A stretch of DNA of 41,473 nt, from assembly GCA_027730605.1 (NCBI GenBank), contig JAQCGN010000004.1:1-41473 (forward strand). Reading direction: 5' to 3'. Made by a program: the position numbers and the translations under genes. Positions 3,234 through 41,473 of this stretch are shown here, one piece after another. The stretch is from Actinomycetota bacterium. GTDB lineage: Bacteria > Actinomycetota > Actinomycetes > S36-B12 > UBA5976. The notes under the pieces are model-generated. The model saw only the letters and a list, made by a program, of their open reading frames with translations. It made no database searches and had not been told where the DNA came from. The first letter of the stretch is position 1; each line of letters starts with the position of its first letter.

Positions 3234-5111
3234 TTGAGTGATCGCGGAAAGACTTCGGCTTCAAAAAAAACAAAATCGACCAACCCAAAACATAAATTAA
3301 AAGCCACCGCTCAAAAAGAATTAAATATATTAATTCAAAATTTAGACTTACTGAAACCTGTAAAAAAAGACTGGCGCTACAGAATTGGTGAGTTCCTTGG
3401 CCAATTAATCTTAACTGTTTTTGCCATAATTCTGCTGGGTTGCTACATCTGGTCGATTACAGTTGTGCCTCCAAATACCACTTTGTTGGGTTATGAAATT
3501 GGTGGCAAACTTGCTCCTAATGTTTATCAACAAATAAATGTTTCCATAAAGGATAAAATAGATAACCCAATTACGATAAAAACTCCTCAGGGAAATATTT
3601 TACTTACTCCAGAAGAAATTGGGATGGAACTAGATTTACCAGGAACAATTAAATCTATTAGAAAAAATTCTTTGGTATTTTTCCGATCTTCAGTAATTAG
3701 TACAGAAATAAAACCAATTATTAGAATCAATGATGACTCATTGATTAATGCCTTAAATCCAGTATCAAAGCAAAATACTAAAGCACCAATTATTGCAACA
3801 CTAGATTTTCAAAATGGAAAAGTTATTACAACAGAAGCTGAGAGCGGAACCAAAATAGATTGGGAAGAAACTAAAAAAAGTTTATCTAGATCTTGGCTTA
3901 ATGAAACAAGAACAGCTGAAGTAGTTATTTCCTATATTCCACCTGCAGTTAGTAACGAAGACGTAAATAAAGTAAGAACTAATCTGGCGGATTTAGCAGT
4001 CGCTGCTCCAATAACTTTAAAAATTGGATCTAGAAACATTAATATTGCTCCTGAGGTAATTGGCACAGCCCTTAATTTTGTTGCAAACGACGGTAAACTT
4101 GAATCAAAGTTCGATGAATCAGTCATTATTAATGAAATTTCTAGACTGATCCCTAATATTCAACCGATTGCCAGTGATGCAAAATTTGATTTCATTGGAG
4201 AGAAAATAGTAATTATTCCCGCACAAGATGGTATTTCATTTAAACCAGGTCAATTAGATGCTGCTTTTTCACCAGTTTTTAGACAAAGAGAAAATAGAGT
4301 TGTAAACCTAGATAGTGCTGTAATTAAACCAGTTATCACAACGGAAAGTTTGGATGCACTGGGAATAAAAGAACAGTTAAGTTCTTTCAGACAAGAATTT
4401 GATTATTTGCCATATCGTGAAAAAAATGTTGCTAAAGCTGCAGAGTATATGGATGGAAAAATCTTAAAACCTGGTGAAGTTTATTCAATGAATGAGACCA
4501 TCAAACAGCGAACAGTTCAAAATGGTTATGTTAAGGGAATTTTCATTGGTGAAGGTGGCCGATTTGCTTTTGGTTTAGGTGGAGGAGTTTCAATTATTAC
4601 TGCTGCTACTTGGGGTGCAGCTTTTTATGCAGGATTAGAAGCAATTGAACAACGTGCTCATTCAATTCTAATTTCCAGATACACACCAGGTTTGGAAGCA
4701 ACAGTTAGCTGGCCTCGTCTAGATCTTAAATTTAGAAATAATACAAATAATAATATTTTGATTAAAGCCATTCCAACAAGAGATTCAATAACAATATCAA
4801 TGTATGGACAAAAAGTTTACGATAGAATTACAGCTAGCTTTGGTGAGCCTTACAGCCTTAATAACAATATTGACCGAGTTATTTCATATGACCCAAATTG
4901 TTTAGAGCAAGAACCTGGACCAGGATTTAAAATAAATGTGACCAGACAATTTTGGCAACTGGGCACAATTGTTGAAAGTGAAAATTTCTTTACAAGCTAT
5001 AAACCAAGTGATGAAATTATTTGTCTTAAAGAAGGAGAGGTTGCTCCTACGCAAACTCCTTCACCAGCACCAGTTACAAGTGGTGTGCCACAACCAGAAC
5101 CACAAAGTTAA
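3234..5111 (+). CDS. VanW-domain membrane-anchored protein
   Basis: A 625-residue protein with a basic N-terminus (about 45 residues), one membrane helix near residues 53-76, then a long extracytoplasmic part. The middle holds repeated segments like the peptidoglycan-binding-4 domain that often precedes VanW. The VanW domain spans roughly residues 390-530, recognised from YREKNVAKAAEYMDG, LKPGEVYSMNE, GLGGGVSIITAATW and AHSILISRYTPG. The C-terminus is a Pro/Thr/Ser-rich tail. VanW proteins are thought to act in cell-wall metabolism, but the biochemical role is not established. The Cys seen in many firmicute GGGxCQ motifs is replaced by Ser. Start is a TTG at 3234, since no ATG or GTG precedes the membrane helix in frame. 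The stop overlaps the convergent cysS stop by four bases. Confidence 0.82.
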   Translation: MSDRGKTSASKKTKSTNPKHKLKATAQKELNILIQNLDLLKPVKKDWRYRIGEFLGQLILTVFAIILLGCYIWSITVVPPNTTLLGYEIGGKLAPNVYQQINVSIKDKIDNPITIKTPQGNILLTPEEIGMELDLPGTIKSIRKNSLVFFRSSVISTEIKPIIRINDDSLINALNPVSKQNTKAPIIATLDFQNGKVITTEAESGTKIDWEETKKSLSRSWLNETRTAEVVISYIPPAVSNEDVNKVRTNLADLAVAAPITLKIGSRNINIAPEVIGTALNFVANDGKLESKFDESVIINEISRLIPNIQPIASDAKFDFIGEKIVIIPAQDGISFKPGQLDAAFSPVFRQRENRVVNLDSAVIKPVITTESLDALGIKEQLSSFRQEFDYLPYREKNVAKAAEYMDGKILKPGEVYSMNETIKQRTVQNGYVKGIFIGEGGRFAFGLGGGVSIITAATWGAAFYAGLEAIEQRAHSILISRYTPGLEATVSWPRLDLKFRNNTNNNILIKAIPTRDSITISMYGQKVYDRITASFGEPYSLNNNIDRVISYDPNCLEQEPGPGFKINVTRQFWQLGTIVESENFFTSYKPSDEIICLKEGEVAPTQTPSPAPVTSGVPQPEPQS

Positions 5112-12600: not shown

Positions 12601-13221
12601 TTAGCTAGGTCTATAAGAAGCAGCAATAATTCCTGATCCACTTGGAATCATCACTGAAATTAATCTTGAATCATCTTTAATCTTGTCACTAACTGCACTT
12701 ATTGCTTGTGCATCTGAAGTGCTAAATTCACCCAAAATATTATTAAAAATAAGAATTCCACCAGGTCTTAATAATCTTAAAGATTGTTCAAAAAGTGTTT
12801 CATATTCTAGTTTTTCACCATTAATAAACATTAAGTCATAAGCATTGTCTGTTAATTTATCAACAACCTCAATAGCACGTCCGGCAATTAATCTAATTTT
12901 ATTTGCCGCAATTCCTGCTTCAGAAAAGATTTCTCTTGCGGCACGTTGTCTTTCCGCATCAGAATCAATGGAGGTTAAAACTCCTGCGGAATTCATACCT
13001 CGGAATAAACACAATCCAGAAACACCTGTGCCAGTACCAATTTCAACAACATTTGAAGCATCAATGGTGGAAGCTAAAAATCTAATTAGGGCACCGGCAC
13101 CTGGGCCAATTGTGATCAAACCTAATTCTTTAGATTTTTCCCGCGCATTTAAAAGATGAGAATCCTCAGTTATGTAACTTTGAGAAAGATTCCAGTCATT
13201 ATTAGATGGCATTTGAGTCAT
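12601..13221 (-). CDS. O-methyltransferase, class I SAM-dependent
   Basis: A 206-residue protein of the O-methyltransferase family 3 (catechol/caffeoyl-CoA OMT-like). The SAM-binding motif VVEIGTGTGVSGLCL is near residues 56-70, SIDSDAERQ supplies the acidic residue that binds the ribose, and MFINGEKLEYETL corresponds to the metal-binding region where DADK/DGxK is usual. Here the residue is Asn rather than Asp (FINGEK), which may alter metal binding. In mycobacteria a homologue (Rv1220c) lies just before sigE and htrA, and here the gene is also divergent from htrA, which supports orthology. The substrate is unknown. Confidence 0.85.
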   Translation of the reverse strand: MTQMPSNNDWNLSQSYITEDSHLLNAREKSKELGLITIGPGAGALIRFLASTIDASNVVEIGTGTGVSGLCLFRGMNSAGVLTSIDSDAERQRAAREIFSEAGIAANKIRLIAGRAIEVVDKLTDNAYDLMFINGEKLEYETLFEQSLRLLRPGGILIFNNILGEFSTSDAQAISAVSDKIKDDSRLISVMIPSGSGIIAASYRPS

Positions 13222-37318: not shown

Positions 37319-38950
<1,632 letters not shown>

Positions 38951-38985
38951 TTAATTAGAAAATAAAATAAGAGACGTTCAAGAAA

Positions 38986-39022
38986 TCCGTCGGTCACGGG
39001 TTCAAGTCCCGTCCGCCCTACC
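38986..39022 (+). tRNA. tRNA 3' half remnant (not a complete gene)
   Basis: TCCGT (38986-38990) could be the 3' side of an anticodon stem, CGGTC a 5-base variable loop, ACGGG-TTCAAGT-CCCGT (38996-39012) a perfect T-arm, then CCGCCCT, A and CC as the acceptor strand, discriminator and the start of CCA. The 5' side (AGGGCGG) and D-arm are absent upstream, where the sequence is AT-rich. Amino acid identity cannot be assigned because the anticodon loop does not read cleanly. This half-gene lies exactly where base composition changes. Confidence 0.75.
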
Positions 39023-39023
39023 G

Positions 39024-39036
39024 GGCCTCGAAGGCC
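39024..39036 (+). terminator. Hairpin after the tRNA remnant
   Basis: GGCCT-CGA-AGGCC, a 5-bp GC stem immediately after the tRNA 3' end, likely the original tRNA terminator of the GC-rich genome. There is no T run. Confidence 0.4.
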
Positions 39037-39042
39037 GCTCTA

Positions 39043-39060
39043 GCGTTAACGCGGCGTTAA
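39043..39060 (+). repeat. GCGTTAA direct repeats before the araC gene
   Basis: GCGTTAA at 39043-39049 and 39054-39060, 11 bases apart (about one helical turn). The first is part of a 10-base palindrome, GCGTTAACGC. This is a candidate regulator site about 70 bases before the araC-like start. Confidence 0.4.
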
Positions 39061-39125
39061 TGTTCCTCTGTATTCTGAGTTGTGGAGCTGACGCCAAAGG
39101 GGGCGTTGCTGGGTGAGGAGGGCGA

Positions 39126-39974
39126 ATGTCGCTGGCGCAAGCGGAGGAGCTTCCCCAACCCTTTGAGCCCAAAATTTACCTTCCCCCACGGTTGAGGGGA
39201 ATCGTCGATTTCATTGGTGAAATGGAGCAAGACCGGCCCGGCCGAGCGCTGATTATGCCCATGGGTAAAGTCGAAATCGCTTTTTTTCTCGAGGGCAGTG
39301 ATGTTGAGGGATTTTATATGGGCGAGGACTCGCCCGCTGATCGTGGCGTCCGCAAAGAAACCTCCCTTATCTTTTCCGTCGCTAACCGACCACAAATCGT
39401 CGCGGGGCAAATTCACGTCTTGCTCGCTCTGATGAGCCCGGCTGCGGCCATGTTGTTGTTCGGAATTCCGGCTTCTGCACTCGCGAATCGGTCCGTTGAG
39501 CCCCGGGAAGTGGGGGTAGACGTTCGACCCCTCGAAGACGTCTTGAGGACGCTTCCAAACTTTGAGATGCGATCGCGAGCTCTCGAGGCCTGGATGGTGA
39601 ACAGACTGGGAGCCATCGCGGACTTGCCGGACTTCATCTCCTTCCGCGGTGCGCTGATTGATTTGTTCCGAGATGGCCGGGATGTTCCCCGTGTTGACCA
39701 GGTGATGGATCTCACCGGCTACTCTCGGGCGCACGCGAATCGACTCTCGCGCCAATGGACGGGTTTGTCGCTGGAGAAGACTCTCGCTCTCAAGAGGTAT
39801 CGGAAGGCGCTGAGGCTCGTCAATTCGCCGATGCCCCTGGCTGATGTAGCTGCCGCGGCGGGTTATTTTGACCAGGCTCATTTCACCCACAGGTTTACCG
39901 AGTACTCCGGAATCTCGCCCAGCAACTATCGACACACCCCAAGGACCGGGGCGGACACTCTTCATCTCGCCTAG
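39126..39974 (+). CDS. AraC-family transcriptional regulator
   Basis: A 282-residue regulator. The C-terminal ~100 residues form the two helix-turn-helix units of AraC proteins: VMDLTGYSRAHANRLSRQW is the first and VAAAAGYFDQAHFTHRFTEY with GISPSNYR the second, with the usual strong FDQAHFTHRF conservation. The N-terminal part (LPPRLRGIVDFIGEM, ALIMPMGKVEIAFFLEG) resembles AraC proteins with a small effector-binding beta domain; the ligand is unknown. ATG at 39126 with GAGGAGG 4 bases upstream. Codon use is GC-rich, unlike everything before 38.96 kb. Its last codons (DTLHLA) are repeated before the downstream paralogue, so it may once have been duplicated. Confidence 0.88.
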   Translation: MSLAQAEELPQPFEPKIYLPPRLRGIVDFIGEMEQDRPGRALIMPMGKVEIAFFLEGSDVEGFYMGEDSPADRGVRKETSLIFSVANRPQIVAGQIHVLLALMSPAAAMLLFGIPASALANRSVEPREVGVDVRPLEDVLRTLPNFEMRSRALEAWMVNRLGAIADLPDFISFRGALIDLFRDGRDVPRVDQVMDLTGYSRAHANRLSRQWTGLSLEKTLALKRYRKALRLVNSPMPLADVAAAAGYFDQAHFTHRFTEYSGISPSNYRHTPRTGADTLHLA

Positions 39975-40065
39975 TGGCCCTCGGGGGCTCGCGAAACATG
40001 CTCATCTCGTACAAGACCGTCTTCGCCCCTTTTTGGAAAACTTCACGCAGCGCATCTTTGCGCTT
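39954..40065 (+). repeat. Leader repeat, copy A
   Basis: About 110 bases starting in the last codons of the araC gene and running to the first membrane-protein gene. Shared with copy B are GAAACATGCTC (39993-40003), TACAAGAC (40010-40017) and GCATCTT (40052-40058). It includes inverted repeats AAGAC-C-GTCTT (40013-40023) and AGCGCA-TCTT-TGCGCT (40049-40064), the latter before the ribosome binding site. Confidence 0.8.
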
Positions 40066-40091
40066 ATTTCAAACAACGGAAGGTGAAACTA

Positions 40092-40454
40092 GTGGACGTA
40101 AAGAACCAGTACTTGTCAGATATGGGAAATCAAACCAATGCCCAATACTTGACATTCATAATCGTGTCCTCAGTGTGGGCACTGGGGATTCCCCTAGTCC
40201 ATGGAGTACTCGGAAGTAATCCAAATGCAGGACTGGGCCTCACAATAGTCACTTCCACTTCGGCGGTTACCTTTTTGATCGTCGGATTGAACACGATAAA
40301 CCGGTACAGAATTCAGAGCCTTAATCCGCAGCCCGAGGCGCAGGACACAGTGGTTGCGCAAACGGAAAGAAAGCAGCCATTCGCCTTTTTTCTGGCGTTC
40401 GTGCCCATCGTCCTGGTGGCCACACTCACGGGTCACCTATTGATACTCAATTAG
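40092..40454 (+). CDS. Small three-helix membrane protein (paralogue 1)
   Basis: About 120 residues with three hydrophobic segments: LTFIIVSSVWALGIPLVHGV, GLTIVTSTSAVTFLIVGLNTI (cut: GLTIVTSTSAVTFLIVGLNT) and FAFFLAFVPIVLVATLTGHL, with a charged loop between the last two. I start at GTG 40092, which has GGAAGG 8 bases upstream; GTG 40083 in the same frame lies inside that motif. Paralogue 2 at 40641 shares WAxGxPL in helix 1, R near the end of helix 2 and GHxxxL at the end of helix 3. I do not recognise the family. Confidence 0.7.
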   Translation: MDVKNQYLSDMGNQTNAQYLTFIIVSSVWALGIPLVHGVLGSNPNAGLGLTIVTSTSAVTFLIVGLNTINRYRIQSLNPQPEAQDTVVAQTERKQPFAFFLAFVPIVLVATLTGHLLILN

Positions 40455-40482
40455 GCGACACCGCCAGGCGAGGAAACCAGAG

Positions 40483-40527
40483 ATGTCAACCCGGACCAGA
40501 GGGGACACCTTCCATCTCGCCCAGTGA
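40483..40527 (+). pseudogene. Remnant of a second araC 3' end (or leader peptide)
   Basis: The frame ATG-TCA-ACC to TGA reads MSTRTRGDTFHLAQ. The end RTRGDTFHLAQ matches RTGADTLHLA, the end of the complete AraC protein at 39974, and the following bases match copy A of the leader. So this looks like the last codons of a duplicated araC gene whose body is lost. A short leader peptide is an alternative, but no ribosome binding site is clear. Confidence 0.55.
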
Positions 40528-40614
40528 CGCTGGCGATTCGAGAAACATGCTCGTTTCATACAAGACGTTCGTCAGCCCTTTTGGGAGCCTTGCGTCAGAG
40601 CATCTTCACGCTCC
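40504..40614 (+). repeat. Leader repeat, copy B
   Basis: Second copy of the ~110-base leader, offset about 549 bases from copy A. GAAACATGCTC at 40542-40552, TACAAGAC at 40558-40565 and GCATCTT at 40600-40606 are shared. The hairpin is less perfect here: GAGC and GCTC flank ATCTTCAC (40597-40612). Confidence 0.8.
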
Positions 40615-40640
40615 TTTACAGGAAGAGAAAGGCATGAAAA

Positions 40641-41024
40641 ATGACTGATCAGCACGAGAGCACGCGAGTTCATTGGGTCTCGTCGAATACTGCGGACAAC
40701 GTTCGCTTTCTCGGGATGAGTCTGCTGGCGATCACAATCTGGGCAGTGGGGATGCCTTTGGCATTCTTTGCGGCTGGGCAAGGGTCAGGGCCGGCAGGAA
40801 CAGGATTGTTCGTGGCGAGTTGTGCGGTTGGACTCGTGCTGTGGGTTTCCACCTTCACGACCGTTGGCCGGCTTCGCGCCTTGGCCAGTGGCCTGCCGGA
40901 GGGCATCTCTGACATGGCTTTCAGCCGCAACTTTCAGGCAAACCCCTGGTTTGCCTTCGCGTTCTTGTTCACTGCGGTACACATCGGCATCATCGTTGGG
41001 CACGGAATCGTCCTGCTCGGCTAA
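40641..41024 (+). CDS. Small three-helix membrane protein (paralogue 2)
   Basis: A 127-residue protein with the same layout as paralogue 1: hydrophilic N-terminus, helix 1 with ITIWAVGMPLAFFAAG, helix 2 TGLFVASCAVGLVLWVSTF, a polar loop and helix 3 WFAFAFLFTAVHIGIIVGHG. ATG with AAAGG 7-11 bases upstream. It lies after leader copy B. The function is unknown; the position behind an AraC regulator suggests a regulated membrane unit. Sequence has diverged well beyond synonymous changes, so the duplication is old. Confidence 0.75.
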   Translation: MTDQHESTRVHWVSSNTADNVRFLGMSLLAITIWAVGMPLAFFAAGQGSGPAGTGLFVASCAVGLVLWVSTFTTVGRLRALASGLPEGISDMAFSRNFQANPWFAFAFLFTAVHIGIIVGHGIVLLG

Positions 41025-41042
41025 ACCATCGAAAGGAAGACA

Positions 41043-41473
41043 ATGAAAATCCTCAACACACGGTTTTGGTTGCTAGCCACCGGAACCCTGTTTACGGTAT
41101 TTCCAACTATCAACGCGCTGTCAGGACAGACAGTAGCCAGCGCCCCTAGTTATTGGCCAGGCACTCTTTCAGCTCGAGAAGCTGAGATCGCAGCTGTCGT
41201 GGAACTGGCATGGGGCTTCCACATCCTTGCCCTGGGTCTGGTGGCTCTGGCCATTGCGCTCCTCTCGCCTGACCCATTGAGGGCTCGGCTCGGTGTGGTG
41301 GTGACGGTCGCTTTTGCCCTGAGCCAAGGACTTTCAGCAGGTACGGCAGCGCAGTTTGGATATGGCGGCACAGACGGCATGGGGCTTTTCGCCATTGTGG
41401 TGATCGGGGTGCCCCTGATCACGCTCATTACCTGCGCCGTGCGGTGGAACGCCAGACCCGTTAGTACCCGCTA
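41043..41473 (+). CDS. Membrane protein, cut at the right edge
   Basis: Open frame from ATG 41043 (AAAGGAAG Shine-Dalgarno, 18 bases after the previous stop) to the window end, 143 codons; the last two bases are TA, so a stop may follow at once. Predicted helices: residues about 8-28, 58-80, 87-110 and 116-137, with a GTLSAREAEIAAVVELAWGFH-type segment (cut: GTLSAREAEIAAV, ELAWGFH) between helices 1 and 2. The N-terminal helix may be a signal anchor. Not clearly a third paralogue. The tight spacing puts it in one operon with the preceding gene. Function unknown. Confidence 0.65.
   Translation, partial: MKILNTRFWLLATGTLFTVFPTINALSGQTVASAPSYWPGTLSAREAEIAAVVELAWGFHILALGLVALAIALLSPDPLRARLGVVVTVAFALSQGLSAGTAAQFGYGGTDGMGLFAIVVIGVPLITLITCAVRWNARPVSTR

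Follow-up and report, generated by a model that had tools for sequence, protein, structure and literature searches.

When the base composition of a contig changes abruptly at a broken tRNA gene, one has to ask whether the DNA beyond the break belongs to the organism and, if so, how it came to be there. The window considered here (the entire contig C29 of genome G000, 41,473 bases) raises this question just after groEL. G000 is a MAG-like assembly (1.24 Mb, 88 contigs, completeness 94.9%, contamination 4.2%), and the host appears to be a Nanopelagicaceae-like, low-GC freshwater or marine actinobacterium. In our reading, which we regard as probable, the GC-rich end of the contig is a small mobile cassette from other aquatic actinobacteria, inserted after groEL and carrying half a tRNA as its joining site. 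The relevant features are:

37322..38950, + strand: groEL, native host gene (TIGR02348 GroEL, E=3.5e-237)
38969..38986, + strand: groEL intrinsic terminator, surviving 5' arm (38969-38981) and loop (38982-38986), from comparison with the G003 hairpin
38984..39022, + strand: 3' half of a Microbacteriaceae-type tRNA-Met(CAT), read as the element's attachment core (exact match, 34 genome-collection stretches)
39025..41473, + strand: foreign cassette, left part, with the contig ending inside it (94% over 1,573 bp and 95% over 487 bp to L184/G059)
39126..39974, + strand: AraC-family regulator, cargo (PF12833, E=2.4e-15; PF00165)
40083..40454, + strand: small hydrophobic protein, 123 aa, cargo (93% aa identity to L184)
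40641..41024, + strand: small hydrophobic protein, 127 aa, cargo (71% aa identity to L179)
41043..41473, + strand: small hydrophobic protein, 143 aa, cargo, truncated where the contig stops (99% aa identity to L184, 79% to L179)

The composition break at 39 kb is real. The low-GC actinobacterial core region extends up to groEL, and GC content rises from 38% to 56% at the tRNA half (0.42 to 0.57 between neighboring 500-bp windows). The first-pass annotation, which had reported this break at a half tRNA gene, advised comparing GC profile and tetranucleotide use on each side, and on both measures the right part lies outside the range of the left: its 2.45 kb have a GC content of 0.563 against a mean of 0.381 (SD 0.016, maximum 0.420) for left 2,450-bp windows, and its tetranucleotide distance to the left mean is 0.070, where the maximum among left windows is 0.031.

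Up to the junction, the DNA is native. The groEL gene is 85-93% identical to those of five same-genus genomes and 73% identical to that of a sixth, and homology to the sister genomes ends exactly at the junction, in the loop of the groEL terminator, which agrees with the earlier placement of the end of the AT-rich core just after groEL. The sister G003, 93% identical over groEL and its trailer, continues with AAGAGACGTTCAAGAAAT-TTGAACGTCTCTTATTTTTT and forms a terminator hairpin with a 13-bp stem (-18 kcal/mol, z -6.0). In the window, the 3' arm of this hairpin, TTGAACGTCTCTT, is missing; the 5' arm and loop are followed by the tRNA half, and only the AAT at the join is common to both. Positions 38969..38986 may thus represent the left half of the host attachment site. 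In the sister genomes groEL, the terminator, and the next gene are contiguous, with no tRNA between them. The native continuation of groEL in G000 is found at the end of contig C23, beginning 48 nt downstream of the hairpin; no cassette DNA is present on C23, and the assembly lacks the window cassette's far end. A second groEL-like gene, 70% identical to that of the window, is located at G000:C50:1891-3365.

The fragment itself (AATCCGTCGGTCACGGGTTCAAGTCCCGTCCGCCCTACC, 38984-39022) corresponds to tRNA-Met(CAT) from the anticodon loop to the 3' end. It had been described as a 3' half comprising the T-arm and acceptor strand; the 3' half stands, though the fragment starts inside the anticodon loop. 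ARAGORN calls no tRNA in the window, where the 5' half is absent; in Microbacteriaceae loci it identifies the full gene as tRNA-Met. The same 39 bases occur inside full tRNA-Met genes of Microbacteriaceae (e.g., Pontimonas, Microcella, and Herbiconiux), and the exact 39-mer is present in 34 genome-collection stretches, so that the half tRNA is no chance match; the titles of these stretches are mostly Microbacteriaceae or Micrococcales, the remainder being two MAGs placed in Cellulomonadaceae and a few that carry no label beyond Actinomycetota. Among 43 family members, it is found in G000 and G005 only. A search of G000 for a matching full tRNA, using Rfam RF00005 to list its tRNAs, located an intact host tRNA-Met on C36; it is only 79% identical over 38 bp, and an origin of the half from the host's own gene was therefore rejected. 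A phage origin was likewise rejected on the IMG/VR results, where neither the half tRNA with the window's downstream sequence nor the arm plus core gave a match, and the half tRNA alone gave two (one within a full tRNA-Met, one cut at a contig edge). Copies of the half tRNA-Met with different upstream arms occur in L056, L065, and L074; it seems that this one anticodon-loop site serves several integrase types.

The DNA to the right of 39024 matches a Microbacteriaceae MAG locus (L064/L184, from G059); as the first-pass annotation had supposed, the two sides come from different organisms, the left being native and the right 94-95% identical to this MAG. The AraC-family regulator shares 94% aa identity with L184 and 52% with L179. 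The 123-aa protein has no match in Pfam or NCBIfam; the 127-aa protein is weakly similar to it (E=1e-6), is missing from L184, and is found in L179. An imperfect direct repeat (39943-40040 and 40511-40600) lies around the first two small membrane-protein genes, and the L184 copy is without the 390 bp between the repeats, as if these had been lost by recombination. Neither G000 nor G005 contains a further foreign block of this kind beyond the window's own segment.

In the donor, the block lies between a full tRNA-Met (L184:9222-9297) and a decayed half (12787-12824). To locate the latter, ten cassette ends, each an arm plus half tRNA, were combined into a profile; an nhmmer search with it matched L184:12733-12827 (E=3e-7), covering the decayed half tRNA-Met and part of the arm. 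On one side of this match is the last of the small membrane-protein genes and on the other a native fatty-acid desaturase gene, and in Pontimonas L178 the same desaturase directly follows the half tRNA. By these sequence boundaries, the AraC block of L184 is a bounded 3.5-kb island at the donor tRNA-Met; the idea that it was native chromosome downstream of that gene was dropped once the decayed half had been found.

This locus is one of a family. Many Pontimonas-like genomes possess integrase-less cassettes of 1.3-3.5 kb that end in a conserved arm (..CACCGAACTCAT) and the half tRNA. In L177, L178, and L179, a full tRNA-Met precedes a 1.4-kb cassette that contains one gene for a lipoprotein (HEYWH motif) and is followed by a half tRNA; L177 has a second half tRNA 1.2 kb further on. 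In that locus (Pontimonas sp. M30B37) the full tRNA-Met at 3755 is followed by two tandem cassettes, each closed by a half tRNA (5178 and about 6373), and the second of the two extends to the contig end. The 1.3-kb cassette of L180 (3052-4220), also at tRNA-Met, carries genes for a DUF6036/AbiEii-like nucleotidyltransferase and an XRE-type regulator, likely a toxin-antitoxin pair. L177, L178, L179, L180, L181, and L184 each have a full tRNA-Met at one end and, at the opposite end, a displaced 3' fragment, whereas the window has only the 3' fragment, at a non-tRNA site.

Ten cassette ends share about 60 bp before the half tRNA (TCACCTGTTTACTGGCATCCGCAACGTCAGCTAACACCCTCTAACACCAGCTAATACCTAGGCACCGAACTCAT), with repeated CTAACACC/CTAATACC motifs that may correspond to integrase arm sites, which they resemble. 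No integrase was found in the visible 2.45 kb of the window cassette, and none is evident among the listed ORFs of at least 90 aa in the 1.3-3.5 kb donor cassettes. A candidate tyrosine integrase of 387 aa is encoded on G059:C182 (PF00589, E=6e-17), at a locus (L185) that also ends in the half tRNA and is incomplete and larger than the 1.3-3.5 kb cassettes; no close copy occurs in G000 or the tested Pontimonas genomes. Two TetR/CcdA-type modules that resemble each other also stand in tandem in L185, and a cassette arm lies close to each.

The decisive evidence comes from two other contigs of G000. The native genes of C62 are fusA, rpsG, rpsL, and a lipoprotein gene; these are followed by ..TTTAACATTCATAATCCGTCGG.., the half tRNA already seen in the window, and the opening part of a HEYWH cassette (94.7% identical to G005:C27 and 76-80% to Pontimonas-like loci). 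In the sister G001, the lipoprotein gene is followed contiguously by an NADH-dehydrogenase-like gene. G000 has this gene on C31; the first 69 bases of that contig finish with the cassette left arm, GTCGCCGAACTCATAA, and native DNA starts after them. C62 and C31 flank a single native intergenic region, with G001 as the reference. C62 ends with ..TTTAACATTCATAA joined to TCCGTCGG, C31 starts with ..GTCGCCGAACTCATAA joined to GTCGCTC, and the two have a 6-bp overlap, TCATAA, in common. Overlaps of 6 bp are of the size used by tyrosine recombinases.

The arm GNCNCCGAACTCATAA has one exact match in G000, at C31:54-69, occurs at cassette ends in Pontimonas-like genomes, and was absent from six same-genus genomes in a pattern search. 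The chance of an exact match in the 110-nt stretch is ~4e-7; with up to one mismatch allowed, a reversed control pattern also has one G000 match, so it is exactness and position that carry weight. In both C29 and C62, host DNA gives way to foreign DNA at one and the same point of the tRNA, AATCCG in the anticodon loop. As expected of a secondary attB, the C62/C31 junctions are reciprocal, share a short overlap, and leave the host sequence continuous across them; for the window insertion, the left junction alone is represented. Taken at the level of sequence, C62/C31 is a second cassette insertion of the same type in G000, with both ends shown, and its reciprocal ends indicate that the element brought the half tRNA along as its attachment core when it entered a site without a tRNA gene. 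All of the host-side evidence comes from one metagenome assembly. G005, through a related contig, is the sole other family genome with such insertions. On G005:C27 (L090), a 5'-only tRNA-Thr(CGT) fragment at about 2119-2166 is followed by AT-rich DNA, and then by a cassette-type arm at 2378-2427 that has a core unlike the half tRNA; these may mark one more element end or insertion, this time in another genome of the genus.

How, then, might the window have arisen? An integrative cassette, whose normal home would be the tRNA-Met gene of Pontimonas-like Microbacteriaceae, would have inserted into the host genome at the groEL terminator loop, presumably through a tyrosine integrase acting in trans. 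In its circular form, the left arm (..CACCGAAC) would run through the overlap in the anticodon loop (TCATAA) into the tRNA 3' half (TCCGTCGGTC...), and the three together would make up the attachment site. Recombination with a tRNA-Met gene would restore the tRNA on one side and leave a half on the other. A non-tRNA site offers no 5' half to join, and the half tRNA is then expected directly after the left host flank, with the cassette behind it and the left arm against the right host flank; at the groEL site this would read groEL, half tRNA, AraC block, arm, TTGAACGTCTC, provided that the far end closes in the same way as that of C62/C31, which we infer. The overlap at groEL is 3 nt (AAT), compared with 6 nt (TCATAA) at C62/C31.

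The first-pass annotation had remarked that a simple island insertion would be reversed here, and indeed the half tRNA adjoins the host on the left. A circle carrying a half tRNA and inserting at a non-tRNA site yields just this order at both junctions, with the half next to the left host and the element downstream, so that the "reversed" orientation is explained once the half is taken as the element's own core.

The assembly join preferred by the earlier reading has become less likely, since the left junction shares only AAT, the same break recurs at C62, and its reciprocal end is on C31. A chimera made during assembly would be joined in shared sequence of at least k bases; the 3 nt common to both parents are too little for an assembler to join on, although a join on the right could have used the half tRNA. 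The 41 bp at 38984-39024 are identical in C29, C62 (G000:C62:3372-3412), and many Microbacteriaceae, and it is possible that a chimera arose through this repeat and that a wrong cassette, or donor chromosome, now occupies the positions beyond 39024. We consider it unlikely, while giving it some weight, that a real cassette inserted at groEL and the assembler then crossed at the half tRNA into an AraC block from co-occurring Microbacteriaceae. The contig does end 2.45 kb later, inside the AraC block, and in L184 that block follows a full tRNA-Met; but it is itself a cassette, bounded by the decayed half, and a misjoin is unneeded. A repeat of 41 bp would also fall short of the final k-mer if one of the common assemblers was used.

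That both junctions are chimeras of unrelated DNA, from amplification or assembly, seems to us very improbable. The fragmentation and contamination of the assembly would allow for it, as would the position of the groEL break in a strong hairpin's loop, where template switching by polymerases can occur; yet two random chimeras at the same tRNA nucleotide would be a great coincidence, and C31 supplies a reciprocal end with a conserved arm and shared 6-bp overlap. Least credible is an ordinary island at a host tRNA-Met gene whose 5' half was later deleted: half tRNAs normally mark island ends, but the contiguous, tRNA-free groEL region of the sisters contradicts this, and the host tRNA-Met is intact on C36 and dissimilar.

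The cassette reading invites comparison with several known systems. Like the tRNA-anchored genomic islands of the Islander type (PMC4383910), the donor elements integrate at a tRNA gene, restore the target, and leave a displaced 3' fragment to mark the opposite end; the window island, by contrast, lies outside a tRNA gene, with the half tRNA at the host-left end and nothing restored. SGI1 (PMC2297512) is likewise a preferred-site element that can enter an intergenic secondary site sharing part of the core and form tandem copies, but it is mobilizable, about 42 kb in size, and has its own integrase, whereas the cassettes are mostly 1.3-3.5 kb without an integrase and their secondary sites are in another bacterial order.

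Cargo is also carried by the tycheposons of streamlined aquatic bacteria (Prochlorococcus; Methylophilaceae, PMC10872708), which use tRNA genes, tRNA-Met among them, as anchors. The donor loci share this anchoring, starting at a full tRNA-Met; tycheposons, however, are 4-200 kb with a tyrosine recombinase (PMC10872708), and the complete cassettes are 1.3-3.5 kb with no recombinase ORF seen. The Methylopumilus additive island fGI-2 (PMC10872708) similarly has recurring tRNA-gene-end repeats between cargo blocks, though its repeat is the last 20 bp of tRNA-Lys, as opposed to 39-41 bp of tRNA-Met plus the conserved ~60-bp arm.

Integron gene cassettes are comparable in being small, in lacking an integrase, and in having a recombination site on every unit, with units sometimes in tandem. 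Here the site is a tRNA-Met half with phage-type arms rather than attC, no integron integrase was found nearby, and the 387-aa candidate scores 37 bits, far below the integron integrase cut-off of 265, so the pairing of attC with an IntI-type integrase is lacking. The available portion of the Pontimonas salivibrio genome paper (PMC6106888) reports island-like regions rich in toxin/antitoxin genes, with no phage genes, and does not describe tRNA-Met cassettes. The cassettes differ from these relatives in their small size, in the absence of an integrase from most units, and in insertion across orders.

We recommend that the genes after 39.0 kb be treated as recently acquired and probably mobile DNA and not as core genes of this organism; "reversed" flanks of a half tRNA do not necessarily signal a misassembly. 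More tentatively, and with more doubt than conviction, we suggest an integron-like economy, in which tiny integrase-less cassettes share the tRNA-Met 3' half and a conserved arm as their site of recombination. In marine and freshwater Microbacteriaceae they would pile up in tandem at tRNA-Met, and they would also cross into another order, landing in terminators and intergenic regions of its streamlined actinobacteria. The recognizable arm and half tRNA make such cassettes countable in any metagenome, and transfer between orders is directly evidenced, with both insertion ends. The routes by which streamlined aquatic actinobacteria gain genes are poorly known, and the cassettes offer a concrete, sequence-defined vehicle.
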